Positions 6,809 through 64,000 of a stretch of DNA of 64,000 nt are shown piece by piece. The notes beneath the pieces were generated by a model. The model ran no database searches. It was not told where the DNA came from and was given only the letters and a program-made list of their open reading frames with translations. The position numbers were made by a program, and so were the translations under genes. The stretch's first letter is position 1. Each line of letters starts with the position of its first letter. Origin of the DNA: Halomonas sp. (lineage in GTDB: Bacteria; Pseudomonadota; Gammaproteobacteria; Pseudomonadales; Halomonadaceae); contig NZ_JAFWFN010000051.1 in assembly GCF_017515565.1 (NCBI RefSeq), forward strand, positions 1 to 64,000. The letters are read 5' to 3'.

Positions 6809-6951
6809 GTGACTCCATCAGTCTGAAATGACAATTACACAATGCCGCCAAGTCGCGCGCTTTTCAATGCTTATTATGGAGAAATTTTATTACGGTCAGC
6901 GTTAAGCTATTTGCCTCTATAGCGATCAGATTTCCTTATCTGGAGAAAAAA

Positions 6952-7629
6952 TTGTATTTGCTATTAGTTGATGATGATAAACGCTTGACACGTTTGCTTG
7001 ATTACATATTTCGTCAGGCTGGGCATACCGTAGATGTGGCCCATGATGGCCGGATGGCTGCAGCATTGATGAAACAGGGCAATTACGATGTACAGGTGCT
7101 TGATTGGATGTTGCCCTTTGAAGATGGCATTGCGCTCTGTGAGCGTGCGCGGAAAAGTGGCTTTGAAGGTGGTATTTTAATGCTAACGGCACGTGATGCC
7201 CTGGAAGACCGCCTGGAAGGGTTTGCCGCTGGTGCTGACGACTACTTATTAAAGCCGTTTGAGCCTGAAGAGTTATTGGCGCGGTTAGAGGCATTAGGGC
7301 GTCGATCTCACCGTCCGCTTCATTCTCGCCGATTAAACGTGGGTGATTGGGTGCTTGAGTGTGAGGAGCGGCGGGTTACTTACAAAGCATGTAGCGTAGA
7401 GTTAACCCAGCGAGAGTTTCAGTTGTTAGAGATGTTGATGCGTAGTGCTGGACGCAGTGTGCCCCGCGAACTGATTTTTGAGCGGCTGTGGGGGCGTGAC
7501 CAAGCGGTTACGGACAATGCTTTGGATGCAACACTACGTTTATTACGACGTAAGCTAGAGCGCTGTGCTGTGCACCAACCGATCGAAACGCTGCGGGGGC
7601 TGGGTTATCGGTTCGAGGCCAAAGATTAA
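6952..7629 (+). CDS. OmpR-family two-component response regulator
   Basis: Receiver plus winged-helix DNA-binding protein, 225 residues. The receiver has the acidic pocket D7/D8, phosphoacceptor D51 (VLDWMLPFEDG), T79 and K101 (LLKPFEPEELL). The C-terminal OmpR/PhoB domain covers about residues 128-222, ending in the typical ETLRGLGYRFEA wing. The start appears to be TTG 6952: it places MYLLLVDDD at the N-terminus, and TGGAG lies 7-12 nt upstream, with no alternative ATG. Downstream by 111 nt is its likely histidine kinase. It resembles QseB/PmrA-type regulators; the stimulus is unknown. Confidence 0.88.
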   Translation: MYLLLVDDDKRLTRLLDYIFRQAGHTVDVAHDGRMAAALMKQGNYDVQVLDWMLPFEDGIALCERARKSGFEGGILMLTARDALEDRLEGFAAGADDYLLKPFEPEELLARLEALGRRSHRPLHSRRLNVGDWVLECEERRVTYKACSVELTQREFQLLEMLMRSAGRSVPRELIFERLWGRDQAVTDNALDATLRLLRRKLERCAVHQPIETLRGLGYRFEAKD

Positions 7630-7740
7630 GCTGAGTATTACAGCGACTATTGACGTTTAGCATAAAATTCTGCGGTTTCAGTCTGCTTTCAGCTCAGCTC
7701 TATACAATGCTCGCGATAAAAGCTTTTCAGGGAAGTCGTC

Positions 7741-9102
7741 ATGCAGAGGCTGGCAAAAAAGATATATCAGACTCCGCTACAGGATTTGCGCCAGTTAGAT
7801 GCATGTCGTCGGCGGCTTGCATGGCGCTATGCGATTGGTATGGCGTGCTGTCTTTGTGTGGTACTCCTGCTGGGCTATGTCATGCACTCGGCGATGGTCA
7901 AGCAGTCGCTGAAAGCAGAGTTGGTGCAACTTGCCCAGCGGGAGGCGGAGGTACATAAGCCTGATCTAGAGGATTGGGTCACTGGTCGTCGTGGCCCTTC
8001 GGATGTGAATATCGGTTTTCGACCGCACCGGACAGCGTTTTACTATGTATTAGGGCCAGAGGGGCAGCTTGTGCATGGGAATGAAACCCGTCCAGCCTTA
8101 CGTGAGAGTGTTCTGGCGTTGCTAAAGAGCCAAACGCTGCCGCGTGGGGAAGTGGTGTTTGAGAAAGTTCATGCGAACCAAGAGGGTGCCTTGCAGCTCG
8201 CGGTACTGCGCCATCCAGTAAAGAGCGACAGTGATAACTACCTTGGTAGCGTCTATGCGGCCACGGATGTTGGTGGAAGCCTTGCCCATCTTGAGCAGCT
8301 GTTGCGTTTATTGATGGTGTTGGCTTTGGGAGTTGTTCTGCTCGCAGGTCTTGGCGGCTGGTGGATGGCGGATCGCAGCTTGCGGCCACTGCAGCACTCA
8401 TTGCGACAGCAGAGGGAGTTTATTGCCAACGCTTCGCATGAGCTTCGTGCGCCACTTACCGTAATGAATACAGCACTAAAGCTCGTTGAGCAGGAAGCAC
8501 ATGGTCAGCTTAGTGAGTTTCATCATCAAACGTTGGTCGATGCGTGTGATGAAGTTAAGCGGTTGCGCCGTTTGGCAGAAGAGCTGTTGTTGCTAGCCCG
8601 TGCGGATGCTGGTGGCTTGTCGTTTAGGCAAGAGCCAGTAACACTAGGAGTTATTATCGAGCGGCAGGTGCGACCAAGAGCTTTGCAAGCCAAAGCCCAC
8701 TCGCAAACGCTCTCCACTTCATTGGCGAATGGGCTACAGGTGATGGGGGACGCCGACTTATTGGCAAGGCTGGTTGGGGCTGGGATTGACAATGCCATGG
8801 AGCATACGCCAAGGGGAGGACGCATTGATATTACTCTTCAAGCGAAAGCGAAATATGTAGAGTTAAATATCAGTGATAACGGCCATGGCATGAGCCCTGA
8901 GCAGTGCCAGCGTGCCTTTGAACGTTTTTATCGCGGGGACTCTTCTCGTCAGCGTCATCGTTCTGGTGCGGGGCTTGGGCTTGCTATTATCGATGAAATT
9001 GCTTGTCAACATGGTGGCAGCGCGTCCCTTAAGTCCCAGGAAGGCAAAGGTACGCTGCTGCGCGTTGTCTTGCCGCTTCTTGACGGTAACGCTTTCAGTT
9101 AA
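7741..9102 (+). CDS. Membrane sensor histidine kinase
   Basis: Partner of the preceding response regulator, 453 residues. There are two transmembrane segments (about residues 30-49 and 187-208) enclosing a periplasmic sensor of about 135 residues. The histidine phosphorylation box is NASHELRAPLTVM with H233; the ATPase domain shows N (GIDNAMEHTPRGG), G1 (SDNGHGM), F (RFYRGDSSR) and G2 (GAGLGLAII) boxes. The linker between the second membrane segment and the H-box is only about 20 residues, too short for a full HAMP domain. ATG 7741 follows AGGGAA at good spacing. The exported protein encoded next may be under its control or part of its signal, but that is only positional inference. Confidence 0.88.
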   Translation: MQRLAKKIYQTPLQDLRQLDACRRRLAWRYAIGMACCLCVVLLLGYVMHSAMVKQSLKAELVQLAQREAEVHKPDLEDWVTGRRGPSDVNIGFRPHRTAFYYVLGPEGQLVHGNETRPALRESVLALLKSQTLPRGEVVFEKVHANQEGALQLAVLRHPVKSDSDNYLGSVYAATDVGGSLAHLEQLLRLLMVLALGVVLLAGLGGWWMADRSLRPLQHSLRQQREFIANASHELRAPLTVMNTALKLVEQEAHGQLSEFHHQTLVDACDEVKRLRRLAEELLLLARADAGGLSFRQEPVTLGVIIERQVRPRALQAKAHSQTLSTSLANGLQVMGDADLLARLVGAGIDNAMEHTPRGGRIDITLQAKAKYVELNISDNGHGMSPEQCQRAFERFYRGDSSRQRHRSGAGLGLAIIDEIACQHGGSASLKSQEGKGTLLRVVLPLLDGNAFS

Positions 9103-9191
9103 ATTTCAGAGTAATCCGCTAGGGTGGATATTGGCATTGTGTGATGCCTCTAGCCAGTAACGCTGAACACGGATAGTCCAAGGAGAGCATG

Positions 9192-10673
9192 ATGACGGTT
9201 ACCTTCCCTTTTGTACGCTTCCCGCTACGCCGAGCAATTGCCTTCGGAATGGGGAGTCTTGCTGTAACGAGCCTGCCCGCCCTGGCAAATTACGATACGT
9301 TGCCCAAAGCTGCAGGTGTTGAGCTTGCCATTCCTGCCCAAATGAGCGCTAAAAATGAAGCTCTTTTCTATAAAGATGCGCTTTATCATCGAGATATTTC
9401 TGCTGTTCAACACGCCATGGCAAGCGTTGGACGCATTATGCGCAATAGTGAAATGGGACATGAAGGTTATCAGCCCGCATTAGCCGATGATGCAATGAGG
9501 GCGCAAGGGCAAGCATGGATTGACTTGCAGAACCAAGCGTCGCTGTTTTTCACCGACGAGGAAGCTGTTGGCACCATGGTGCAAGAGGATGGTGAGTGGG
9601 TGCCCGGTCGTGAGATGAATTTAGCCGATCTGGCACTGGCCTCTTTTAGTTACCACATGCACCATAGCGCCAGCCGCTGGTCGGATCACGGCCTTGAAAA
9701 TGCTATTACTTATGGTCCCGCGACCTATCTCGGCGCAATTACCCAACGGCTTTATCAAACACACTATAGTCAGAGTGGTTTTCAAAATACTGACAGCGAA
9801 CGCGATGCCGCAAGTATGGCGCACGGTTTAGATGCGCTGCATAGCCTAGCCTACTCCTGGGTGCGTTGGCACAAACCAGGTGGTGCTGATGATATGGGAC
9901 AACTCAGTGAAGAGCGCATGGAAAATGCTCATGGCATCTCCCTCGAACGCCTTGTCACTATCAGTCGCAACCTTGCTGGTACCCTGGATGCTGCCTGGGA
10001 CGAAGAACGCAAGGTGTATGACCTAAATAATGACGGAGCCTACCATCTGGATACGCTGGGTAGCCTGATACGGGGACACAAGGCGCTTTATGAGATACTA
10101 CACGTGTTTGGCAGCGACGAAGATCAAGCGCTAGCCGAGACACTGTTCGAGCGCAAAGCAGACATGACGCTGGCACTGCTCGATAGTGAAGAAGCGGTGC
10201 GCGACTGGGGTATGGCAGAACGCGTGGTCTTCACTGTAGATGGTGTGCGCGCCGACAGTGAACGTATTGATACCGAGACTCAGTGGCGTTTTCTGAACCA
10301 TTTTGCTGGTGGGTTCGGCACGCTGCGGGAGCGAGAAGGCACCTCAGATTTTTTGGCAACGCGTCCAGAGCTGGTTGAAGGTATCGGCGCTCTCAGTGAC
10401 CGCTTATTGATGGCGGCACTAGACTACCAACTGGACGAGGGCGGGCTGATGCAGCGTCGCTTGGCAGTTGAGAATGGCGATGTCATTGATGATCGTCCTC
10501 AGGTCGCTGCTATTGCTTGGTTTGCGACTGCCGCAGGCAACGCCTATCGTAGCGGCGATGCTTTTGATCGGCCCGGTGACTGGGGAGATGATGCCGAGCA
10601 AGAAGAGCGAAGTCGCGCGCTCTACGACGCTATTCTTGCTAATAATGAGTGGTTGCTGGCACTTCTTGATTAA
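9192..10673 (+). CDS. Exported protein of unknown family downstream of a two-component system
   Basis: I do not recognise this 493-residue protein. It begins with a clear Sec signal (positive FPLRRAIAFGMG, hydrophobic core, cleavage probably after SLPALA). The mature part is acidic, as in halophile periplasmic proteins, appears largely helical, and is rich in Trp and His, with a striking SYHMHHSASRWSDHG segment. There is no lipobox or membrane anchor. Later segments such as VYDLNNDGAYHLDTLGSLI and RDWGMAERVVFTVDG suggest repeated helical hairpins, possibly an alpha/alpha fold; this is a guess. ATG 9192 gives 6-nt spacing from AAGGAG; ATG 9189 is the alternative. It starts 90 nt after the kinase gene and ends at a terminator. 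Confidence 0.75.
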   Translation: MTVTFPFVRFPLRRAIAFGMGSLAVTSLPALANYDTLPKAAGVELAIPAQMSAKNEALFYKDALYHRDISAVQHAMASVGRIMRNSEMGHEGYQPALADDAMRAQGQAWIDLQNQASLFFTDEEAVGTMVQEDGEWVPGREMNLADLALASFSYHMHHSASRWSDHGLENAITYGPATYLGAITQRLYQTHYSQSGFQNTDSERDAASMAHGLDALHSLAYSWVRWHKPGGADDMGQLSEERMENAHGISLERLVTISRNLAGTLDAAWDEERKVYDLNNDGAYHLDTLGSLIRGHKALYEILHVFGSDEDQALAETLFERKADMTLALLDSEEAVRDWGMAERVVFTVDGVRADSERIDTETQWRFLNHFAGGFGTLREREGTSDFLATRPELVEGIGALSDRLLMAALDYQLDEGGLMQRRLAVENGDVIDDRPQVAAIAWFATAAGNAYRSGDAFDRPGDWGDDAEQEERSRALYDAILANNEWLLALLD

Positions 10674-10697
10674 AAGTTTATCTAATATTGAAATGAA

Positions 10698-10732
10698 AAA
10701 GAGCGTCGTAAAAGGCGCTCTTTGCTTTTTTT
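10698..10732 (+). terminator. Rho-independent terminator
   Basis: AAAGAGCG (10698-10705), a 10-nt loop, CGCTCTTT (10716-10723), then GC and seven T residues. It ends the unit containing the exported protein, 25 nt after its stop. Confidence 0.8.
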
Positions 10733-10810
10733 GCTCAGCAAAAAGGCATGGATTTAGCATTCGTAGGAGCAACTAGCTCTGGTAGACTATTCGCCTTCTA
10801 ATTTCCTGGT

Positions 10811-11412: not shown

Positions 11413-12564
11413 ATGAACTCTGGTATTTCAAACAGCATTGGCATTTCAAAAAATATCGGCATTTTAGGTGCCGGTCAGTTGGGCCGCATGTTGGCGCTGG
11501 CGGGCTATCCTTTAGGTAATCGCTTTACGTTTTTAGATACCACTGGCAATCCAAGCGCGGGGATTGGTGAGGTGATTGTCGACCCCGATAACCAGCGTTT
11601 GGCGGAGTTTCTCGATAAGGTCGATGTGGTGACCTACGAGTTTGAACACCTGCCTGTTGAACTCGTTAAACAAATTGAGCAGCACAAGCCGGTGTATCCA
11701 GGCAGCCGCGCCATCGCCGTTTGCCAAAACCGAGTGGAAGAGAAAGCGCTGTTTGATCGCCTTAGCATCCCGACACCCGCTTACCGTGTGGTGGAAAGCG
11801 CAGAGCAACTAGAAGCGGCGGCGGCTGAGTTGGGTTGCCCAGTCGTGGCTAAATCGGTCACCGAAGGTTATGACGGTAAAGGCCAAGCGGTGCTAAAAGC
11901 GCCGGAGCAGGCGCGTGAGGCGTGGGAAGCTATTGGCCACCGCCAACTCATTGTTGAAGCTTTTGTTGATTTTGTACGCGAAGTCTCGATGATTGCCGTG
12001 CGTGGCCGCGACGGTGAGGTAGTGTTCTACCCCATGGCGGAAAATCAGCACGTTGATGGTATTTTGCGCTACTCAGTTGCGCCGCTGCCCGATTTAGACG
12101 CCAGCGTTCAGCAAACCGCCGACAGCTATATGCGTGCATTGTTGGATGAGCTGGACTACGTAGGCGTGCTGGCGCTAGAGCTGTTCCAAACCCGCGATGG
12201 TGGGCTGTTAGCGAACGAAATGGCGCCCCGCGTGCATAACTCTGGCCACTGGACCATGGATGGCGCGGTCACTAGCCAGTTTGAAAACCACCTGCGCGCC
12301 GTGCAGGGGTTGCCGCTGGGCAGCACTGAAGCGATTGCCCCTACCTGCATGGTCAATGTGATTGGCCGCGAAGGCGATAACGCTGCGCTGCTGGCGCTGG
12401 GTCATGCGCATCTTCACCGCTACGACAAACAAGAGCGTCCAGGGCGTAAGCTGGCCCATGTGAACGTTGTAGCAGCCAACCACGCCGAGCTGATTGAGAA
12501 GGTGCGCGCCTGCCTAGCGTTGATACCCGATGCTCCGCCCGTGGCGTGGAGTTTTAGTAATTAA
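11413..12564 (+). CDS. purK: 5-(carboxyamino)imidazole ribonucleotide synthase PurK
   Basis: ATP-grasp enzyme that carboxylates AIR with bicarbonate to N5-CAIR, the substrate of PurE. It has 383 residues. The N-terminal Rossmann-like part shows GILGAGQLGRMLALAG after a slightly extended, Ser/Ile-rich leader of about 14 residues. The ATP-grasp core contains VVAKSVTEGYDGKGQAV and the metal/active-site segment ALELFQTRDGGLLANEMAPR with RVHNSGHWT. ATG 11413 follows AGGAGG at 8 nt. The extended N-terminus could mean a later start near residue 12, but the ribosome site favours the first ATG. Confidence 0.94.
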   Translation: MNSGISNSIGISKNIGILGAGQLGRMLALAGYPLGNRFTFLDTTGNPSAGIGEVIVDPDNQRLAEFLDKVDVVTYEFEHLPVELVKQIEQHKPVYPGSRAIAVCQNRVEEKALFDRLSIPTPAYRVVESAEQLEAAAAELGCPVVAKSVTEGYDGKGQAVLKAPEQAREAWEAIGHRQLIVEAFVDFVREVSMIAVRGRDGEVVFYPMAENQHVDGILRYSVAPLPDLDASVQQTADSYMRALLDELDYVGVLALELFQTRDGGLLANEMAPRVHNSGHWTMDGAVTSQFENHLRAVQGLPLGSTEAIAPTCMVNVIGREGDNAALLALGHAHLHRYDKQERPGRKLAHVNVVAANHAELIEKVRACLALIPDAPPVAWSFSN

Positions 12565-12605
12565 ATAGCGAGTTAATAGTAATAGCGCGAGATTTAGATG
12601 TATTT

Positions 12606-12632
12606 ACAACCGTCCTTAGGGGCGGTTGTTTA
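12606..12632 (+). terminator. Probable terminator after purK
   Basis: ACAACCG (12606-12612) pairs with CGGTTGT (12623-12629) around a short loop, followed by a weak, interrupted T tract (TTAGTATTT). It lies 41 nt past the purK stop. Confidence 0.5.
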
Positions 12633-12785
12633 GTATTTGGCTGCTGTTAATCAACGTTTCAGCTGATTATTCAGTGCTAAGGTAGACATTAAATGTGTTT
12701 TGCCGATACTGGTTTGTAACAACGCCTGAGGAAATAAGCGTGTATTGCTCAATGATAATAAAACTCAGCGCAAAAGGAGTGAGTT

Positions 12786-14093
12786 ATGGGAGTTCGCCTT
12801 AAAGTCGGCGACTACGTACTGATTGTCGTATGTTTTTTGCCTTGGTTAGTAGCGCTACCGCGGCTGGGTTGGCCAATAGGAGCGTCGGCTGGCAGTTGGC
12901 TTCAATGGGTGGGTATTAGTAGCGGCATTTTAGGCCTTTCGACCATGCTTCTTGCTGCTGTAGTGAGTATTCGCTTACCAGGGTTTGATCGCTATTTCGG
13001 TGGCTTAGCAAGATTGTGGGGAATACATCGCTGGCTTGGGTTTGCCTCATTTATGTTAGTCATGGTGCATGTCACGGCCCTTGGCTTATCCGCAGCATCG
13101 GTGTCGCTACCCGTCGCGGTCGCAACGCTTTTTCCACCCATTAACCACTTATCAATATGGTGGGGCTGGTTTGCGTGGCTTGCGATGCTGGTCTTTTTAG
13201 CACCGACGTTTAATTTTTTTGGGAGCTTAAGTTACCAGCGTTGGAAGTCGCTGCACTTATTCTCGGCGCTTGCCGTGGTAGCTGGTGTGCTGCACGCACT
13301 GCTTTTAGCGCCGCAACAGCTGGTTTGGTGGATGCTTGGGCTGGCCGCTATCGCCGCGATTGTATGGCGTAAAGCCTTGTCGCCGCGCTTCTCACGTGTG
13401 CCGTACCGGGTTAAATCGGTAACTCAGTTGGTCAATAACGTGGTGGAGATTGCGCTGGTGCCCGAAGATAAGGCTATCAGCTACCAGACGGGACAATTTA
13501 TCTATCTCACCCCTTTGGATAAAACCTTAGCGGCGGGAGTGGGGGAAGAGCACCCTTACACGATTGCCTCGGCGTCCGGTGATCATTGCCTGCGTATTGG
13601 AATAAAAGCGTTGGGTGATGCTAGCGCTGCTTTGCAAACGGTCACTCCAGGAAGCCGTATGATGGTCGAGGGGCCTTATGGTGAGTTTTATACTCGCCGT
13701 TACCCAAACCGAGACCAGCTCTGGTTAGGTGGCGGCATTGGTATCACGCCCTTTGTGGCAGGTGCACGCCATATTGAAGCGAAAAACACCAGCGAAGTGC
13801 CAAAAGGGCAGGTGCAGCTACTCTATTTGGCCAAAAATGCCCAGCGCGCCTATTACCACACCCTTTTTAAACACGTCAGCCAAATGCGAGAAGACTTTGG
13901 GTACGACGTGCACTACTTTCAAAAAGAGGGGCCGCTCACCGAGGAGTACTTGCGGTGGTTTTGCCCTGACTATGCCGAGCGAGAAATTTATATGTGTGGT
14001 CCGCCGGAAATGACTCAACACGTGCGCCAACTGCTGCTGGATCAAGGCGTTCCTTCATCACGTATCCACAGTGAGGTCTTTGATTTTTTATGA
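12786..14093 (+). CDS. Ferric-reductase-like flavocytochrome b (membrane haem domain plus FAD/NAD reductase domain)
   Basis: Membrane oxidoreductase of the ferric reductase/NOX superfamily, 435 residues. The N-terminal half has about six membrane segments with two histidine pairs, H81/H95 and H157/H170, spaced 14 and 13 residues, as expected for two b haems across the membrane. The C-terminal half is a ferredoxin-NADP reductase-like module: FAD motif HPYTIASAS (about 256-264), GPYGEF, NAD(P) motif GGGIGITPF (about 315-323) and CGPPEMTQ near the end. It should carry electrons from cytosolic NAD(P)H outward. Its stop overlaps the next gene's start (ATGA), strongly implying a joint function with that exported haem/flavin protein. 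Confidence 0.85.
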   Translation: MGVRLKVGDYVLIVVCFLPWLVALPRLGWPIGASAGSWLQWVGISSGILGLSTMLLAAVVSIRLPGFDRYFGGLARLWGIHRWLGFASFMLVMVHVTALGLSAASVSLPVAVATLFPPINHLSIWWGWFAWLAMLVFLAPTFNFFGSLSYQRWKSLHLFSALAVVAGVLHALLLAPQQLVWWMLGLAAIAAIVWRKALSPRFSRVPYRVKSVTQLVNNVVEIALVPEDKAISYQTGQFIYLTPLDKTLAAGVGEEHPYTIASASGDHCLRIGIKALGDASAALQTVTPGSRMMVEGPYGEFYTRRYPNRDQLWLGGGIGITPFVAGARHIEAKNTSEVPKGQVQLLYLAKNAQRAYYHTLFKHVSQMREDFGYDVHYFQKEGPLTEEYLRWFCPDYAEREIYMCGPPEMTQHVRQLLLDQGVPSSRIHSEVFDFL

Positions 14094-14899
14094 ATAAAAT
14101 AGCCTTTGCCGGTTTCATAGCCTTTGTAAGCTCGGTGCTTACGCTAGTGTCATTGCATGCGCTTTCGTCTGACCAGTATTCTACTGATGCAGAGGATGAG
14201 CACTACACCTTAGAGGAAGTAGAAGAGCACAACAGCGCCGACAGCTGTTGGAAAGTAATTCATGGGGGCGTTTACGACATTACCGACTATATCTCCCAGC
14301 ACCCCACCGACGAAGAGGTGATTCTTGAGTGGTGTGGGCGGGAGTCGACAGAGGGGTGGGACAATAAGCGTCCTGGCGTGCCCCATAGTGCCCGGGCTGC
14401 CGCGGAGTTGAAGGAGTATCGTATTGGGCGGCTGGAAGGCGATGAGGCACAGTCTACTGCTCCTGAAACGCAGCGTGAGGAGAGCGCTGATGATGCTGGT
14501 TCTCCCGCGGCAGATGAGCGGCTGCATCGCGCCTTATTAGGTTTGCCATTAGATGGTGTTTATCGCGGAGTGTTTAGCGATGGCGGTGAAATGCAGGTTA
14601 ACGTGCAGTTCACTGTTCGTGAAGGCGCTATTGAACGCTTGAGCTATCGGTACCTTGCCTATCGAGGTGAGGATTACCGGCGTTTAGAAAGCGATCATGC
14701 GGCGTATCCTGTTTGGGTGCAGCATGAGCAAATTGCTGAGCGCTTAGAAGGTAAGCCGCTCACCGCAATTTTCCAGCTCTACGAGCCTGAGCGCCTCATT
14801 GATGATGTTGATGGCTACAGCGGTGCTACCTTGCGGGGCAATAAAGTCCTATCGGCAATTCGTGATGGATTAAATCGTGGGGTGTATAGCTGGCCTTAA
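14090..14899 (+). CDS. Exported cytochrome b5 / FMN-binding domain fusion protein with flavinylation motif
   Basis: A 269-residue protein with three parts. Residues 1-25 are a hydrophobic signal or membrane anchor. Residues about 38-116 are a cytochrome b5-like domain: CWKVIHGGVYDITDYISQHP gives the first haem ligand H71, and the second is probably H99 in VPHSARAA. C53 and C82 could form a disulfide outside the membrane. After a Glu/Ser-rich linker (about 118-142), residues about 150-265 form an FMN-binding domain ending in DGYSGATL (241-248). That matches the ApbE flavinylation motif, with T247 the expected covalent FMN site. It is translationally coupled to the flavocytochrome b upstream, suggesting a trans-membrane electron path to a periplasmic acceptor. 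No apbE is seen in this window. Confidence 0.85.
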   Translation: MNKIAFAGFIAFVSSVLTLVSLHALSSDQYSTDAEDEHYTLEEVEEHNSADSCWKVIHGGVYDITDYISQHPTDEEVILEWCGRESTEGWDNKRPGVPHSARAAAELKEYRIGRLEGDEAQSTAPETQREESADDAGSPAADERLHRALLGLPLDGVYRGVFSDGGEMQVNVQFTVREGAIERLSYRYLAYRGEDYRRLESDHAAYPVWVQHEQIAERLEGKPLTAIFQLYEPERLIDDVDGYSGATLRGNKVLSAIRDGLNRGVYSWP

Positions 14900-14951
14900 C
14901 TAGCATCATCCCGCTCACATTATGCGTCATGAAATTGACTATTTAGCTGTC

Positions 14952-14976
14952 GCCGCCCGAGTTGGGCGGCTTTTTT
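14952..14976 (+). terminator. Rho-independent terminator
   Basis: GCCGCCC, loop GAGTT, GGGCGGC followed by six T residues, 53 nt after the b5/FMN gene stop. Clear end of that two-gene operon. Confidence 0.88.
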
Positions 14977-45153: not shown

Positions 45154-45240
45154 TGGTGCCCAGGAGAGGACTTGAACCTCCACGTCCATACGGACACTAG
45201 CACCTGAAGCTAGCGCGTCTACCAATTCCGCCACCTGGGC
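45154..45240 (-). tRNA. tRNA-Leu(CAG), copy 1 (promoter-distal)
   Basis: 87 nt including encoded CCA, on the minus strand. The 7-bp acceptor stem is GCCCAGG/CCTGGGC, the anticodon loop TTCAGGT gives anticodon CAG, and a long variable arm (class II) is present. Identical to copy 2. Confidence 0.95.
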
Positions 45241-45257
45241 GCATCATCTTTAACGAC

Positions 45258-45369
45258 CGTTTGTATTCGTATGGTGCCCAGGAGAGGACTTGAACCTCCA
45301 CGTCCATACGGACACTAGCACCTGAAGCTAGCGCGTCTACCAATTCCGCCACCTGGGCGAATACAAACG
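45258..45369 (-). repeat. 12-bp inverted repeat flanking the middle tRNA-Leu
   Basis: CGTTTGTATTCG (45258-45269) and its exact complement CGAATACAAACG (45358-45369) sit on either side of tRNA copy 2. In the precursor, the 5' leader and 3' trailer could pair over 11-12 bp next to the acceptor stem. Confidence 0.8.
45272..45358 (-). tRNA. tRNA-Leu(CAG), copy 2 (middle)
   Basis: 87 nt, identical to copy 1, CCA encoded, anticodon CAG. 31 nt separate it from copy 1 and 104 nt from copy 3. It is bracketed by a 12-bp inverted repeat. Confidence 0.95.
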
Positions 45370-45462
45370 TACTGCCTATTGCTATAGGCCTTACTACTTT
45401 AGGTCTTGCTGCTTGCTGCTGCACCTAGCTACATCATGTTAAGGGGGTAACACAATGCGGTT

Positions 45463-45549
45463 TGGTGCCCAGAAGAGGACTTGAACCTCCACGTCCATAC
45501 GGACACTAGCACCTGAAGCTAGCGCGTCTACCAATTCCGCCATCTGGGC
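45463..45549 (-). tRNA. tRNA-Leu(CAG), copy 3 (promoter-proximal)
   Basis: 87 nt, same as copies 1 and 2 except that acceptor pair 7:66 is A-T and not G-C, a compensatory double change (GCCCAGA/TCTGGGC). CCA encoded, anticodon CAG. Confidence 0.95.
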
Positions 45550-51482: not shown

Positions 51483-52871
51483 ATGCAGGACAAGCCTTCT
51501 GCTGATCAGGAAACGGCAGCGCTTAAACTGCCGCCGCATTCGCTAGAGGCGGAGCAGTCGGTGTTAGGCGGGCTAATGTTGGATAACCAAGCTTGGGATA
51601 ACGTTTCAGAGCGCTTGGTGACCGACGACTTTTATCGCTACGAGCATCGCCTCGTCTTCAACGTGATGATTCATTTGGCGGAGTCGGGTCAGCCGCTGGA
51701 TGTGATAACCCTCTCCGAAGCGCTTGAAGCCAGAGATCAGCTCGATACGGTTGGTGGGCTGGCATTTCTAGCCGAGCTTGCCCGTAATACCCCCTCGGCC
51801 AGTAACATCCGCGCCTATGCCGATATTGTGCGTGAACGTGCGACGCTGCGTAAGCTTATCCGGGCGGCAAATCAAATAGCCGATGGGGCTTTCTCCCCCC
51901 AAGGGCGGCCAGCGGACGAGCTGCTCAATGAGGCCGAACGGCTGGTATTTCAGATCGCTGAAGAGCGTCCGAAAACCGGTGGCCCTATTGGCATGAGTGA
52001 GCTACTCACCAAAGCAGTTGACCGCATTGATGAGCTGTTCAATCTCAAAGGTGAAATGACGGGGCTTTCCAGCGGGTTCCGCGATTTGGATGAGATGACA
52101 TCTGGGCTGCAGCCTTCTGATTTGGTAATTATCGCCGGGCGCCCTTCCATGGGTAAAACCACCTTCGCTATGAATTTGGTAGAGCACGCGGTTATTGCCA
52201 GCGATAAACCGGTCATGGTGTTCTCCATGGAGATGCCTGCCGAATCGCTAATGCTACGTATGCTCTCATCCCTTGGCCGGATTGACCAAACCCGGGTGCG
52301 TTCAGGTCAGTTAGAAGATGAAGACTGGCCGCGCCTTACCTCAGCGGTCAACCTGCTTAAAGACAAGCAACTGTTTATTGATGATACGGCTGCACTGTCA
52401 CCTAACGAGATGCGCTCGCGCCTGCGTCGGGTCGTGCGTGAGCACGGCAATATGGCGTTAGTTATGATCGACTACCTGCAGCTAATGCAGATCCCTGGCT
52501 TTTCCGAAAACCGTACGGGAGAAATCTCTGAGATTTCACGCTCTCTAAAAGGGCTGGCAAAAGAGTTTCAGTGCCCCGTGGTGGCGCTTTCCCAGCTTAA
52601 CCGCTCGCTGGAGCAGCGTCCCAACAAACGCCCAGTGATGTCGGATCTAAGGGAATCGGGAGCGATTGAACAGGATGCGGACGTTATCGCCTTTGTTTAT
52701 CGTGATGAAGTCTATAATCCAGACAACCCTGACAACCAAGGGATTGCGGAACTGATTATTGGCAAGCAGCGTAATGGGCCTATCGGCACGGTGCACATGG
52801 CGTTTATTGGTAAATACACTCGATTTGAAGATCTAGCCCCCGATCGCTACGGCGAAGCGTTTGGCGATTAA
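51483..52871 (+). CDS. dnaB: Replicative DNA helicase DnaB
   Basis: Hexameric helicase that unwinds DNA at the replication fork and loads primase. 462 residues: N-terminal primase-contact domain beginning PHSLEAEQSVLGGLMLDNQAWD (in part), linker, and RecA-like motor with Walker A GRPSMGKTTFAMN (about 219-231), Walker B VMIDYLQLMQ and DLRESGAIEQDADVI. AAGGAG precedes ATG 51483. No intein or insertion in the motor domain. The 214-nt gap upstream holds no gene but has two short direct repeats (see findings). Confidence 0.96.
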   Translation: MQDKPSADQETAALKLPPHSLEAEQSVLGGLMLDNQAWDNVSERLVTDDFYRYEHRLVFNVMIHLAESGQPLDVITLSEALEARDQLDTVGGLAFLAELARNTPSASNIRAYADIVRERATLRKLIRAANQIADGAFSPQGRPADELLNEAERLVFQIAEERPKTGGPIGMSELLTKAVDRIDELFNLKGEMTGLSSGFRDLDEMTSGLQPSDLVIIAGRPSMGKTTFAMNLVEHAVIASDKPVMVFSMEMPAESLMLRMLSSLGRIDQTRVRSGQLEDEDWPRLTSAVNLLKDKQLFIDDTAALSPNEMRSRLRRVVREHGNMALVMIDYLQLMQIPGFSENRTGEISEISRSLKGLAKEFQCPVVALSQLNRSLEQRPNKRPVMSDLRESGAIEQDADVIAFVYRDEVYNPDNPDNQGIAELIIGKQRNGPIGTVHMAFIGKYTRFEDLAPDRYGEAFGD

Positions 52872-56952: not shown

Positions 56953-57396
56953 TTATCTGCCGCGGGTTTTTAGCAGCTGGCGGCGGCGGTTTTTGATACT
57001 GCCAGGGCGTTTGGGGCGACCGGGTTTTGCCACTCGGTTTTGCCCCACATCTTCATCTAGAAGTTCAGGCAGCGAACCACGGGTGCTGGTGGTAAAGCGT
57101 AAATGCATGTGTAGCCCTGTTTTTGCCAGCATGTGACCTGTCACTGGTGCGGTTAAAAACAGAAACAGGGTAATTAATAGCTCTTGCATGTGTGGTTCGC
57201 GCTGGGTGGTTGTAAAGTAAACCATTGAGGCAATCAGCACACAGCCGATGCCTAGGGTAGTGCCTTTAGTAGGCCCGTGTAAGCGCATAAAGAAGTCTTT
57301 GAACTGCAGCATGCCAAGCGAGCCAGTAAAGGCAAACATCCCGCCGCAAATAAGCAGAAGCGATACCAAAGCCTCAACCATAATAGCAAATGTCAT
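56953..57396 (-). CDS. mrpG: Mrp Na+/H+ antiporter subunit G
   Basis: Small membrane subunit, 147 residues with three transmembrane segments (LVSLLLICGGMFAFTGSLG first), then FFMRLHGPTKGTTLGIGCVL, the MrpG signature, and a long basic tail (about the last 45 residues, KPGRPKRPGSIKNRRRQLL in part). ATG 57396 is chosen because GGAGG is just upstream; a longer in-frame form would overlap mrpF. Last gene of the operon. Confidence 0.9.
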   Translation of the reverse strand: MTFAIMVEALVSLLLICGGMFAFTGSLGMLQFKDFFMRLHGPTKGTTLGIGCVLIASMVYFTTTQREPHMQELLITLFLFLTAPVTGHMLAKTGLHMHLRFTTSTRGSLPELLDEDVGQNRVAKPGRPKRPGSIKNRRRQLLKTRGR

Positions 57397-57407
57397 GTCA
57401 GCCTCCG

Positions 57408-57677
57408 TTACTCGATAATATCGCCGCGTAGCAAGTATCGACAAATTGCCATGGTGCTGATAAAGCCAAGTAAGGCGATTAACATGGCAGCTTCAAAGTA
57501 CGTTTTTGTGTTAAACCAAAGCCCAGCAATAACGATAAGCGCAATTGCGTTGACATACATGGTATCTAGAGCAAGCAATCGATCGGGTATGTCTGGGCCT
57601 ATAAGTAAGCGGTAAACATTCATTGCTAATGCTAGCACTATTAGCGTCAAACTGATCCACAGGGCGATGACTAGCAT
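57408..57677 (-). CDS. mrpF: Mrp Na+/H+ antiporter subunit F
   Basis: 89-residue membrane subunit with three transmembrane segments, with the family stretch RLLIGPDIPDRLLALDTMYVN. Overlaps mrpE by 7 nt and is followed by mrpG after 11 nt. Confidence 0.92.
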   Translation of the reverse strand: MLVIALWISLTLIVLALAMNVYRLLIGPDIPDRLLALDTMYVNAIALIVIAGLWFNTKTYFEAAMLIALLGFISTMAICRYLLRGDIIE

Positions 57678-58162
57678 TCAAAAATCTCCTTTATGGGACG
57701 CTCGTAACGCTCATGAATGTCTTGAATAAGAGCCTGCTCATCCTCCATATCCAATACATGAATAAGCAGTGACGTATGATCTAGCCGAATATTGGTAGAA
57801 ACAGTGCCGGGCGTCATGGTGATGGTATTGGCCAAGAGAGTAATGGCTAGCCGATCCTGTACTTGCAGTGGGTACTCAATAAAGCCTGGGTGCGGTGTCC
57901 GCTTGGGGCTCAAAATTAATAAGCTAACGTGCAAGTTGGCGACCACGATATCGGCAAGTACCCGTAAGACAAAACGTATGAGCTTTATAGGGTGTTTAAC
58001 CCGGGGGAAAGGCAGCCAAAAGGCGCGGGTTAGCATCGGTATGCCAATTGCTAGCAGCACCCCAAGCAGCAGTTGGCCGAAAGCCAAGCTTCTCACCATC
58101 AGAAGCCAGGTGATCAATAGTATTAGTGACAGGGCAGGTGCGGGAAAATAGCGGGCAAACAT
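57671..58162 (-). CDS. mrpE: Mrp Na+/H+ antiporter subunit E
   Basis: 163-residue membrane subunit with two to three N-terminal membrane segments and a cytosolic C-terminus. The family pattern ANTITMTPGTVSTNI and DRLAITLLANT is clear. Its ATG shares one base with the intact mrpD stop (TAATG), so normal translation should be coupled to mrpD; the upstream nonsense codon would break that coupling. Confidence 0.92.
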   Translation of the reverse strand: MFARYFPAPALSLILLITWLLMVRSLAFGQLLLGVLLAIGIPMLTRAFWLPFPRVKHPIKLIRFVLRVLADIVVANLHVSLLILSPKRTPHPGFIEYPLQVQDRLAITLLANTITMTPGTVSTNIRLDHTSLLIHVLDMEDEQALIQDIHERYERPIKEIFEC

Positions 58163-59694
58163 TACTGCTCCTCCTCATCGCGCAAAGCAAAATCTGAAGG
58201 ATTTACTTCGGGCAGTATGCTCTGAATAGTCCGTTGTGGCGAAGCAAGTTGCTCAGCAGTGGCTTGGGTGTATTCGCTTACAGGTCCCGCCAGTAACACT
58301 AACAGTGGAGCGCTAATCAACAACCACGTTACGCCAGATAGCTGCAAAGGAGTGATACGTGGCCCACTGGGAGCGCCTTTGTAGCTCGCCCAGAAAAATA
58401 CCGAGCCAGCCCGAGAGAGAGCAATCATGGCCGCTAAACCAGCCAAGAGTAATAGTGGCCACAGTCATAGCCTCTGTGCGCTATCCGCAGCCTGCATCAA
58501 GAGTAATTTGCCCAATGCTCCAGCTAAGGGGGGCAAGCCTGCCATGGCGACTGCCCCTACCAAAAACATACCGCCAAGCAGAGCTGGTTGATGAATCTTG
58601 CGGGCACGTACTAAGCGCGTGCCCGCCTTGCCCCGTTGTAGACCAATCAGCTCGGCTAACAGGAACAGCGCTCCAGCGATGAGCGTGGTGTGTACGAGAT
58701 AATAGAGCAAAGCCCCCGTGCCTGAGATGTGGCCCATTCCAGCCCCGCTCATTAGCGTGCCGACTGAAACAAGCACTAAATATGCCACTAGGGTACGTAG
58801 ATCGCGAGCGGCTAGAACGCCAATACCTGCTAACAAAAGGGTTGCCAAGCCGCCCCACCAAAGCCAATTATCGATATAAACAATGGCCGGGCTTTCCGAA
58901 AACACTAGCGTTTGAACCCGGAGCAGGGCGTATAACCCTACCTTTGTCATAATCGCAAACAGTGCTGCTACCGGTGCGGGCGCAGAGGCATAGGTGCTCG
59001 GTAACCAAAAATAGAGGGGTAAAATAGCTGCCTTTAAACTAAATACAACGGTAAGCAGCAAAGCCCCTGCGGTAACCAGCGCGGCATTAGCCTCATCCAT
59101 TTGGGCAATGCGATACCCCATATCTGCCATGTTGAGCGTGCCAGTCGCGCCATACAGTATCCCAAGAGCAATTATGAACAGCGCTGAACCCACCAGATTA
59201 AGCACAACATAGTGAAGCCCTGCGCCAATGCGCGCTTTACCACCGCCGTGCATAAGCAACGCATAGGAAGCAAGCAGTAAGATTTCAAAAAATACAAAGA
59301 GGTTGAATAAGTCTCCGGTTAAAAAGGCGCCGTTTAACCCCAGCAATTGAAGCTGAAAAATGCCGTGAAAGTTGCTCCCGCGGCCATCATCCCCTGCGCT
59401 GGCAAACAGGATGCACCCCAAAGCCAGTACGGCGGTGAGTGCCACCATCAGTGCTGAGAGACGATCTAATACCAGCACAATGCCAAACGGTGCCTGCCAG
59501 TTCCCCAGGTTATAAATGTTGATAATATCGCTATTGGCATGTACCAGTAAGACGCCCGATAGCACCACTAATAGCGCGGTTGAGATAATGCTGATACGTC
59601 GCTGCAACGTGGTGGGAACTTGCCCCATGAGCAGTAAACCAAGCGCAGTCAGCATGGGTAAAAGAATAGGAAAAACTAGCAGGTGTTGGCTCAT
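58162..59694 (-). pseudogene. mrpD: Mrp Na+/H+ antiporter subunit D, interrupted by an in-frame TGA
   Basis: MrpD is an ion-translocating subunit related to NuoM/NuoN, normally about 490-510 residues. Here the frame runs 409 residues from ATG 59694 to TGA at 58467-58465. The same frame then continues without break for another 100 residues (LWPLLLLAGLAAMIALSRAG onward) to TAA at 58162. The N-part has all the family features, such as FNLFVFFEILLLASYALL and LKAAILPLYFWLPSTYASAP. At the break, CTA-TGA-CTG-TGG replaces what is probably CTA-TGG-CTG-TGG (Leu-Trp-Leu-Trp), a single G-to-A change. The stop removes the last two or so membrane helices. Either a real null allele, a leaky stop (TGA-C context) or a sequencing error; the reading frame is otherwise intact. 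Confidence 0.85.
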
Positions 59695-60035
59695 TAGCGG
59701 GTGCTTCCTTCTTCACCTTGCTTACCATCCACGTGGTCATTACCTAGCTCGGCGCGCGCTCGTATCGCAAGAATGACCATGAATGCACTCATGGCAAAAC
59801 CAATTACGATGGCCGTTAGTACCAGTGCCTGGGGGAGGGGGTCGGCAGGTGCGGCTGAGGCACCTATCACCGCCGCTGAGTGGGTATGCAGGCCACCGGT
59901 TGAAACTAAAAACAGGTTGACCGCATAGGAAAGCAGCGCAAGTCCCACGATAATTGAGAAGGTGCGGCCTCGAAGCAGTAAATAAATACCGCTAGCGCTT
60001 AATACTCCGATTACCAGCGAAAAAAGCAGCTCCAT
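59694..60035 (-). CDS. mrpC: Mrp Na+/H+ antiporter subunit C
   Basis: NuoK-like membrane subunit, 113 residues with three transmembrane segments: YLLLRGRTFSIIVGLALLSYAVNLFLVSTG (in pieces) and DPLPQALVLTAIVIGFAM, the MrpC/NuoK signature. Its ATG and stop each share one base with the neighbouring mrp genes, indicating tight coupling. Confidence 0.93.
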   Translation of the reverse strand: MELLFSLVIGVLSASGIYLLLRGRTFSIIVGLALLSYAVNLFLVSTGGLHTHSAAVIGASAAPADPLPQALVLTAIVIGFAMSAFMVILAIRARAELGNDHVDGKQGEEGSTR

Positions 60036-62863
60036 TATTTATTGCCCTCTTTTGATGCCGTTTGTTCCGTGGTTTTGAGCGTAGGGCGATGCGCTGTTGT
60101 AACGCTGCCCAGGTTCACCAAAATCATCAGCGTGGCGCCCACTACCGCAAGATACACCCCCAAGTCGAAAAGTAGCGCCGTTGCTAGCTCTGTTTTGCCA
60201 ACAAGCGGGATATTAAAGTAGCCGAACGAGGAGGTTAAGAAGGGATACCCGAACAGCCAGCTTCCCAAGCCTGTGAGCACGGCTATGACAAGGCCGATTA
60301 CTGAAATAACTGGATACGAGAGCGGCAAGCGGCTGCTGGTCCATTCGTAGCCCCGTGCAATGTATTGCAATAGTAGTGCGATAGCCGTAATTAACCCCGC
60401 AATAAAACCACCGCCGGGTTGGTTGTGCCCACGCAAGAAAATATAAACCGAGACAAGCAGTGCCAGCGGCAAAATGATCTGAGCGACTACTTCAAGAATC
60501 ATCGGGTAGCGATGGCGCGACCAGCGAATCCCCTCAATATTACCGGAGGGCTTAAACAGCCGCAGGCGGTTAAGAAGTTTATAGGTCGCCAGCCCGGCCA
60601 GAGTGAGTACAGTAATTTCCCCTAACGTATCGAACCCGCGAAAATCAACCAAAATTACGTTGACGACGTTGGTGCCGCCGCCGCCAGGCACACTGTTGCT
60701 GAGGAAGTAATCAGAAATGCTCAGCACTTCCCGGGTCAGAAGGGCGTAGTTCAATCCAGCAATAACTAACCCTAACGAACCTGCCAGTAAAACATCCCGC
60801 ACGATTCGCCGAGAGGAGACCCAGCGAGGAGGCCGCTGAGGGAGGAAAAACAGGGCCAGTATCAGCAGTATCATTGACGCCACTTCAACTGATAGCTGCG
60901 TCATCGCAAGGTCCGGTGCTGAAAAGCGGATAAACGTAAGCGAGACGGTAAGTCCCACCATGGAAAGCATTAGTAGTGATACCAGCCGCCAGCGGTGGGC
61001 AAGCGCGCTGCCAATGGCGCCAATCATCATCACGCTGGCGCCTAGTAGGGTAAGCCCGTCAATTGGCTGCATGGCAACGTTTCCGGATAATGTCTCCAAT
61101 TGGCTAAGGCCGAGCGCAGTCATGCCGAGTGCCGATAATAGAAGAAGCGCTTGATAACGTTGCAGGGAGCCGTTTTCTAAACGTAGCGTTATCCAAAGCG
61201 AGGCTTTAATAAGGCGGGTGACAGCTTTCTCAAACAGGGCTGGTGCATTAGGTGCAGGTAGCAAAGAGGCTAAGCTGCTAATGTTTTTATGCCGCCACAA
61301 TAAAGTGATACCGCCGAGGATTGCGAACAAGCTCATTAAGAGCGGTAGGTTAATCCCGTGCCACAGTGCAAAAACGAAAAGCGGTGCGTTATCCCCTTGC
61401 ACTGCGATGCTCGCGGTGCGTATGAGGGGAGCGGCTAGCGTCATGGGGAACAGGCCTACGAGCAGGCATAAACAAGCAAGCATTAAACCCGGCAGATACA
61501 TGCCTTTAGGCGGGTCATGGGGAGTATGTGCTGCCTCTGGCGGATTATCGTTGGGAGAAAAAAATACGCAGTATACCAAGCGCAGTGAGTAAGCCACTGA
61601 CAGGGTGGCGCCAACCAGCACCAGTAATGGAATCACGCTACCTAGGCCACCAAATAAATCGGTGGCTAAGGCTTTGGTCAGCAGCATCTCTTTCGATAAA
61701 AAGCCATTAAACGGAGGGAGGCCGGCCATTGCCGCGCCCGCCATGAGCGTTAATGTTCCGGTAATGGGCATAAGCGACCATAACGCACCTAGGCGCCTGA
61801 TATCCCGTGTGCCGGTTTCGTGGTCGATAATGCCAGCGCTCATAAACAGCGTTGCTTTAAACAGCGCATGGTTAAGAATATGGAAAAGAGCGGCGACAAT
61901 CGCCAGCGGTGTATTCAGGCCAAGCAGCAGCACCACTAACCCAAGGTGGCTTACCGTTGAAAAGGCTAAAATACCTTTTAAATCACGCTCTAATAAGGCA
62001 AACCAAGCGCCGTACACGAGCGTAGCCAAGCCCGCTAGTGTTAGACTGATCGACCACAATGACGTGTCGCCTAATGCCGGATGTAGCCGTGCGAGTAGAA
62101 AAATCCCCGCTTTTACCATGGTGGATGAGTGCAGGTAGGCGGACACGGGAGTGGGCGCCGCCATGGCGTGGGGTAACCAAAAATGGAAGGGGAACTGGGC
62201 CGATTTAGTAAAAGCGCCCAGTAATACCAAGGCCATAATGACAGGGTAGGTGGATGCTTGGCGCAACTGATCGCCTGCGGCCAGTACGTCGGGCAGCGCA
62301 AAACTGCCTACTTCATGGCCGATGAGCAAAATACCGGCGAGCAATGCCAAACCGCCAGCGCCAGTAACGGTAAGCGCCATGCGTGCTCCGCGCCGCGCAT
62401 CGCTACGATGTCCCCAAAAACCAATCAGTAAAAAAGAGGCAACGCTGGTAAGTTCCCAGAACAGCCATAAAAGCAGCAGATTGTCGGCCATGACAATGCC
62501 GAGCATGGCTGTCATGAACAGCATCATGTAAGAGAAGAATCGCCCATCATTTTCGCTGCTGGAAAGGTAATAGCCCGCGTAAATGATGATTAAACTGCCG
62601 ATGCCCAGGATGAGTAGACCAAACAGTAGGGTTAGGCCGTCAACCCTTAGAGCAAGGTCTAGTCCTAACAACGGTATCCAGCTTAGCTGCTGTGATACCG
62701 TGCCACCGTCTAGTAGTATCGGCAGGTGGCTAAGCAGTAGGGCCAGGGCAGTAATGGGAACGATTGCTGTCGCGGCGGTGCAGAACAATCGCCCGCGAGA
62801 GGCAGTCAGTAACGGCACTAACGTGCCAACCAGGGTCAACAGTGGTATCCATAGCAGCGGCAT
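60035..62863 (-). CDS. mrpA: Mrp Na+/H+ antiporter subunits A and B fused
   Basis: Large NuoL-like ion-translocating subunit, 942 residues, with MrpB-like sequence at its C-terminus (about 785-930), the group 2 arrangement in which A and B are one protein. Motifs: [41 protein letters not shown] and [20 protein letters not shown] (antiporter core), [20 protein letters not shown] in the region before B, and [16 protein letters not shown] (MrpB signature). First gene of mrpAB-C-D-E-F-G. Confers Na+/H+ exchange for sodium and alkali tolerance. Confidence 0.93.
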
Positions 62864-63240: not shown

Positions 63241-64000
63241 ATGCAACTCGCCGTATTATTGGGATTTGTGCTGGCCGCGTCGTCGCCACTGCTTAACCGC
63301 TGGTTTGGTCAGCGGGCAAGCATGGTGCTAGCGCTGTATCCAGCCTTGATGGCTGCTTGGCTATTCAGCCAGGCCCCCTCAGTACTTAATGACGGCCCGT
63401 TGCTACTGGAATGGCAGTGGGTACCTTCGCTAGGCATTAGCCTGACGTTTATGCTTGATGGGTTATCACTGCTCTTTGGGCTGCTGATTACCGTGATAGG
63501 CACCTGCGTTTTAATTTACGCAGGGGGCTACTTAAAAGGGCACGAGGATATTGCGCGCTTTCATTTAGCACTGCTGGCCTTCATGGTCTCGATGCTTGGG
63601 TTAGTGCTTGCTGACGGGCTGATTACCCTGTTTATATTTTGGGAACTCACCAGCATTACCTCCTACCTGCTAATCGGTTTTAACCACACCGATATTGAGG
63701 CGCGGAAGTCGGCACGTCAGGGGCTGTTTGTCACGGTAGCGGGCGGCCTTGCGCTGATGGCAGGGTTAGTGCTGCTGGGAGTGGCGAGCGGTGGCTGGTC
63801 ATTCTCCGAAATCGGCCAAATGGAGAGCGACTTGCGTGAGCATGCTCTCTATACACCGATGTTGATCTGCATACTGCTTGGCGCTTTTACCAAATCGGCC
63901 CAGTTCCCTTTCCATTTCTGGTTGCCCAACGCCATGGCGGCGCCTACCCCTGTATCCGCCTACTTACACTCGGCGACCATGGTGAAAGCGGGCATTTATC
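63241..64000 (+). CDS. mrpA: Second MrpA-type antiporter subunit (partial, runs off the window)
   Basis: Open to the window end (253 codons seen). It is NuoL/MrpA-like: [36 protein letters not shown] and [20 protein letters not shown] plus [20 protein letters not shown]. It is a diverged paralogue of the MrpAB protein on the other strand, not a close duplicate. CAGGAG lies 10 nt before ATG 63241. It probably heads a second mrp operon transcribed away from the first. Confidence 0.88.

Follow-up and report, generated by a model that had tools for sequence, protein, structure and literature searches.

An in-frame TGA at codon 410 interrupts mrpD in a group-2 mrp operon of this Halomonas genome. 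We judge it probable that a recent single-base nonsense substitution ends the gene at this codon, leaving an antiporter that is probably inactive and whose loss may be tolerated through a group-1 mrp operon. The relevant features are listed below by their positions in the window, by which we mean the whole 64,000-nucleotide stretch that was analysed.

56953..57444, minus strand: mrpG, intact, start codon uncertain (family match)
57408..57677, minus strand: mrpF, intact (family match)
57671..58162, minus strand: mrpE, intact, its ATG overlapping the mrpD TAA (family match)
58162..59694, minus strand: mrpD, group-2/PhaD type, one TGA inside 510 codons (translation and family match)
58162..58464, minus strand: conserved MrpD tail 3' of the stop, codons 411-510 plus TAA (family match and alignments)
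58313..58468, minus strand: out-of-frame 51-codon ORF from an ATG overlapping the TGA (ATGA), a possible restart with no product expected
58465..58467, minus strand: in-frame TGA, codon 410, within predicted helix 405-435 (translation, alignments and model)
59694..60035, minus strand: mrpC, intact (family match)
60035..62863, minus strand: mrpA', an A-B fusion of 942 aa, intact (family match)
63241..64000, plus strand: start of a divergent group-1 mrp operon (mrpA-G), which runs on outside the window to C63:69113

MrpD is encoded by a single MrpD/PhaD frame of 510 codons on the minus strand (59694-58162), the sole break in which is the TGA at codon 410. Its translation gives 409 residues, the TGA, 100 more codons and a TAA at 58164-58162; the stop costs 101 of the 510 residues (20%). 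The read-through translation matched NF009309 (cation/H+ antiporter subunit D) over residues 2-496 with 615.5 bits, above the cut-off, and the first 409 residues alone scored 542.2 bits. Hence, in-frame MrpD sequence 3' of the TGA accounts for about 73 bits of the match, as expected of a nonsense substitution and not of a frameshift. We ruled out a frameshift: one frame runs throughout, without gaps relative to the nearest relative, G050. Nor is the match of the tail to MrpD a matter of chance, because the protein encoded by the 100 codons after the stop is 99% identical to the G050 tail. The earlier note had described a frame open from 59694 to 58162 except for one TGA (58467-58465), a nonsense change and not a frameshift, a loss of about 20% of the protein, and an mrpE that begins on the mrpD stop. 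Translation, the NF009309 match on both sides of the TGA and the TAATG at 58164-58160 bear out each of these points.

Family scans identified the operon as mrpA'CDEFG, six genes with an A-B fusion, and thus as a group-2 Mrp operon. Subunit A' (942 aa, B fused) matches NF009288 over positions 1-949 of 954, above the cut-off. This layout is described in the available portion of a 2017 review (PMC5703873) for group-2 Mrp/Pha/Sha operons, such as Sinorhizobium meliloti Pha1 and those of Pseudomonas aeruginosa and Vibrio cholerae, in which A and B are likewise fused. In contrast to those operons, the one described here has a premature stop in mrpD, and its subunits are not all full length, mrpD ending at codon 410 of 510. 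Decay beyond mrpD was ruled out: the other five genes are free of stops and have omega values of 0.01-0.14 relative to G050.

We examined the codon-410 column in 109 homologous loci, comprising 29 genus loci and 80 from a wider search, two sets whose species may overlap. Trp occupies the column in 80 of the 109, ten other residues share it in the remaining 29, and a stop occurs in none; going by these loci, the site itself is not invariant. Every homologue runs on for 81-162 residues beyond the column. The earlier note had held that a protein naturally ending at this codon in homologues would count against its reading; none of the 109 ends there, and even the shortest tail has 81 residues. The frame is open in G050, whose MrpD is 98% identical at the amino acid level, and in G062, G030 and G051, each with an MrpD 92% identical. 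Seven of the eight closest aligned relatives carry Trp in the column, and the alignments support Trp as the ancestral residue. The suggestion that the TGA lies one base from TGG (Trp) fits both of these counts, and the proposed alignment with mrpD of relatives showed the stop to be lineage-specific. Taking G062, G030 and G051 to set the polarity, we place the origin of the stop on this branch, in a frame that is open in relatives.

The genus-wide search found an MrpD match at E <= 1e-60 in 79 of 82 genomes, although in six of the 79 nothing better than a distant paralogue or a fragment was matched (E 3.4e-93 to 7.7e-67); the best match reached E <= 1e-170 in 73 of the 82, own genome included. 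Genus genomes outside the fetched loci were judged from the stop flags of this search. The flags in G075, G028, G041 and G001 are normal ends, being placed at query position 502 and so beyond the usual C terminus. G039 was also flagged; its match has no stop within the aligned residues 3-499. The G074 flag is a TAA in a fragment (residues 112-345), and that genome is of low quality (74% complete). Outside this genome, the best named MrpD matches were from Halomonas, Billgrantia and Vreelandella (66-72% identity for the first few), in a search from which very near records may be missing; from these we take the source to be a halophile of the family to which they belong. One genome was compared per species, so the evidence for the TGA allele comes from a single assembly.

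Constraint is as strong in the tail as in the head, judging from the substitutions that separate this mrpD from that of G050. Relative to that genome, the tail has 11 synonymous changes and 1 non-synonymous change (omega 0.03); for the head (codons 1-409) the counts are 57.5 synonymous and 10.5 non-synonymous (omega 0.06). With G062, G030 and G051 as outgroups, 6 synonymous changes and 1 non-synonymous change in the tail fall on this branch, in addition to the stop; the G050 branch accounts for 2 synonymous changes, and 3 are assigned to neither branch. On the assumptions of a branch dS of 0.08-0.12, a background omega of 0.05 and a tail that has been neutral since the stop arose, neutral evolution of the tail can be rejected at the 5% level if it spanned more than about 15-25% of the branch. 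The relaxed constraint that could be sought behind a nonsense mutation is thus not seen here. A tail free of decay means that the stop is very recent, or is a base-call error, or is read through.

Might the TGA simply be a wrong base in the draft, the strain's own mrpD being intact? The genome is a draft assembly of 86 contigs (3.76 Mb, 97.6% complete), the only one of its species in the comparison, and a single substitution ahead of a tail without decay is what such an error would leave. However, the site lies in no homopolymer or repeat (by eye), and the sampled part of the assembly is otherwise clean, with no excess of nonsense codons. That sample comprised three blocks syntenic with G050: contigs C63 and C40 whole and the first 132 kb of C61. 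At least 80% identity to a counterpart in this genome was found for 207 of 295 G050 ORFs (about 73,700 codons), and the 88 ORFs below that threshold were left uncounted. Nine in-frame stops appeared. Seven lie in the first 39 residues and probably reflect an over-long choice of start, one falls close to the end of a partial match (residue 127 of 132), and one is that of mrpD, which alone has a stop beyond residue 39 and outside the last five residues. The reverse survey (208 ORFs) gave two stops, one at residue 7 and one at residue 171 of 244, the latter in an apparent shadow ORF rich in Ser and Pro. An error here would mean about one nonsense error per 74,000 codons, a rate that would be well above the level usual for a short-read consensus, if the assembly is of that kind. 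We therefore regard a base-call or assembly error as unlikely, though deserving of real weight. Both surveys used the best aligned piece per ORF, in which frameshifts would show as partial matches and not as stops. A separate observation from C61 (about 7288-7297 in this genome) is a 248-residue G050 ORF matched in two pieces (residues 1-46 and 44-248), which suggests a frameshift in the genome or in the assembly.

We also considered whether the UGA is read through, by near-cognate insertion of Trp, often enough to yield functional full-length MrpD, so that the gene would be merely down-tuned. UGA followed by C is a leaky context, and here a C follows the UGA; the stop sits where most relatives carry Trp, and the tail behind it is under strong constraint. 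Some background leakiness at codon 410 is possible. Against more than that, the stop is not conserved in any of the 109 loci, RF2 is present, and a single tRNA-Trp(CCA) was found. Among 28 other genomes searched, 15, one of them G050, carry a tRNA-Trp identical to it in all 76 bases; it has A9 and G24 (manual count) and a 5-bp anticodon stem. The UGA-reading tRNA-Trp variants named in the available portion of PMC13092985 are absent from it. A suppressor tRNA-Trp was thereby ruled out, and of three one-mismatch matches to the tRNA-Trp pattern, one proved to be a tRNA-Ser, and at the other two ARAGORN predicted no tRNA. Selenocysteine at codon 410 was likewise ruled out, since no tRNA-Sec scored above the family cut-off. 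Ten matches stayed below it: eight coincide with genes for tRNA-Gly, Ser, Leu, Lys, Tyr and Trp, and the positions of the remaining two, judged by offset, correspond to a tRNA-Lys and a tRNA-Cys. In these searches, which covered tRNA-Trp and tRNA-Sec, no dedicated tRNA (Sec, UCA-Trp, Hirsh-type or 4-bp-stem Trp) was found. Functional readthrough is, in our view, very unlikely. We consider highly improbable the variant in which a leaky UGA gives a mix of truncated and full-length MrpD, with readthrough setting the dose of the group-2 antiporter while the group-1 operon bears the main load.

Could the gene instead be split, with a restart after the stop supplying a separate C-terminal piece that joins truncated MrpD? 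The TGA overlaps an ATG (ATGA), and there are in-frame start candidates at TTG (58446, codon 417) and ATG (58428, codon 423). But the overlapping ATG is out of frame: ribosomes restarting on it could translate 51 codons before reaching a stop. The in-frame candidates lie inside model helix 405-435 and have no clear ribosome-binding site before them (by eye). A split gene strikes us as barely credible.

We return to the reading that we favour, a recent nonsense substitution that ends group-2 mrpD at codon 410. Ribosomes would then make a 409-residue MrpD without nearly all of the helix from 405 and without every later helix. The structural model of MrpD (mean pLDDT 89.4, pTM 0.91) places codon 410 in helix 405-435, only the opening residues of which are predicted to be kept in the 409-residue product. 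Further model helices at 449-467, 469-484, 486-493 and 500-509 are all lost with the stop. We take the lost helices to be TM13 and TM14. Solved MrpD chains align across the stop, 6z16_D to residue 443 and 7qru_D to residue 496. In a 40-sequence alignment, the lost residues include the invariant L416 and F434 and, at a conservation of at least 90%, W412, R428, G430, W435, L458, P471, A480 and L483.

With the stop inside helix 405-435, the truncated protein would not be expected to assemble. The same expectation follows by analogy: when mrpD is deleted in the Bacillus pseudofirmus Mrp system, none of the other Mrp subunits can be detected in the membrane, according to the available portion of PMC5703873. 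Truncated MrpD is therefore unlikely to support assembly of the complex; on this analogy the complex would probably fail to form, and the group-2 antiporter would be inactive or nearly so. Polarity on mrpE-G, as the earlier note had proposed, is also possible, given the 303 nt left untranslated between the mrpD TGA and mrpE. An AGGAGG lies at 58175-58170, 7 nt before the mrpE ATG, so translation of mrpE need not rest wholly on coupling. We found no sign of an RNA fold hiding the mrpE start; the predicted folding of 58300-58100 is no more stable than that of shuffled sequences (z 0.58).

How might the cell tolerate this loss? A group-1 mrp operon adjoins the interrupted one and could make the absence of group-2 Mrp tolerable; most of it lies beyond the window and so out of the earlier note's view. 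Genes A, B, C, D, E and G of this operon (C63:63241-69113) were recognised by family match; its mrpF is assigned by position and size, being an ORF of the length of F at the expected site without a family match at E <= 1e-30. The seven genes have no stops, with omega values of 0-0.05 relative to G050 (0.01-0.14 for the group-2 genes). The two operons are adjacent and divergent in G050 too. In the available portion of PMC5703873, the S. meliloti genome is likewise described as having both a group-1 (Pha2) and a group-2 (Pha1) cluster; unlike those of S. meliloti, the two clusters here neighbour each other, divergently.

With a second set of pump genes adjoining, the mrpD lesion looks like an ordinary recent gene loss. 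It resembles ordinary recent nonsense pseudogenes of bacteria in having a lone lineage-specific stop, no further decay and a related function nearby, and we found nothing that distinguishes it from them. A literature search of limited scope recognised no paper on a nonsense allele of mrpD. If real, the allele would be a fresh natural knock-out of one of two adjacent Mrp antiporters in a halophile and could help to separate their roles; otherwise, it is an ordinary nonsense allele or a draft-assembly error. In its available portion, the 2017 review states that no differences between sets have been reported for some species with two mrp sets, and it gives distinct findings for S. meliloti pha1 (PMC5703873).

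The genome also holds a third Mrp-like cluster, on contig C80 (L125:2788-5625, corresponding to G000:C80:46787-49624), with E, F, G, a B-like gene with MbhD/MnhB domains, and C. The last gene of the cluster encodes a 945-aa protein whose single chain carries two Proton_antipo_M domains (two fused antiporter modules). This double-module protein has matches in 8 of the 82 genus genomes, own included (E <= 1e-100), and four of the rows flag one stop.

Elsewhere in the window, the stretches 6888-10776 and 12562-14965 have no nucleotide match to the syntenic G050 region and, from this comparison, are lineage-specific insertions or losses. Three tandem tRNA-Leu(CAG) genes lie at 45154-45549 on the minus strand. 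The dnaB product (51483-52871, plus strand) has 462 aa and is intein-free. Its G050 orthologue (L119/L120) has 878 aa, of which a 413-residue insert gives matches to the Pfam families Intein_splicing and LAGLIDADG_3, and the exteins flanking the insert are 97-100% identical by segment between the two genomes. Two closely related species differ at this dnaB site, which holds an intein in G050 and is empty here.
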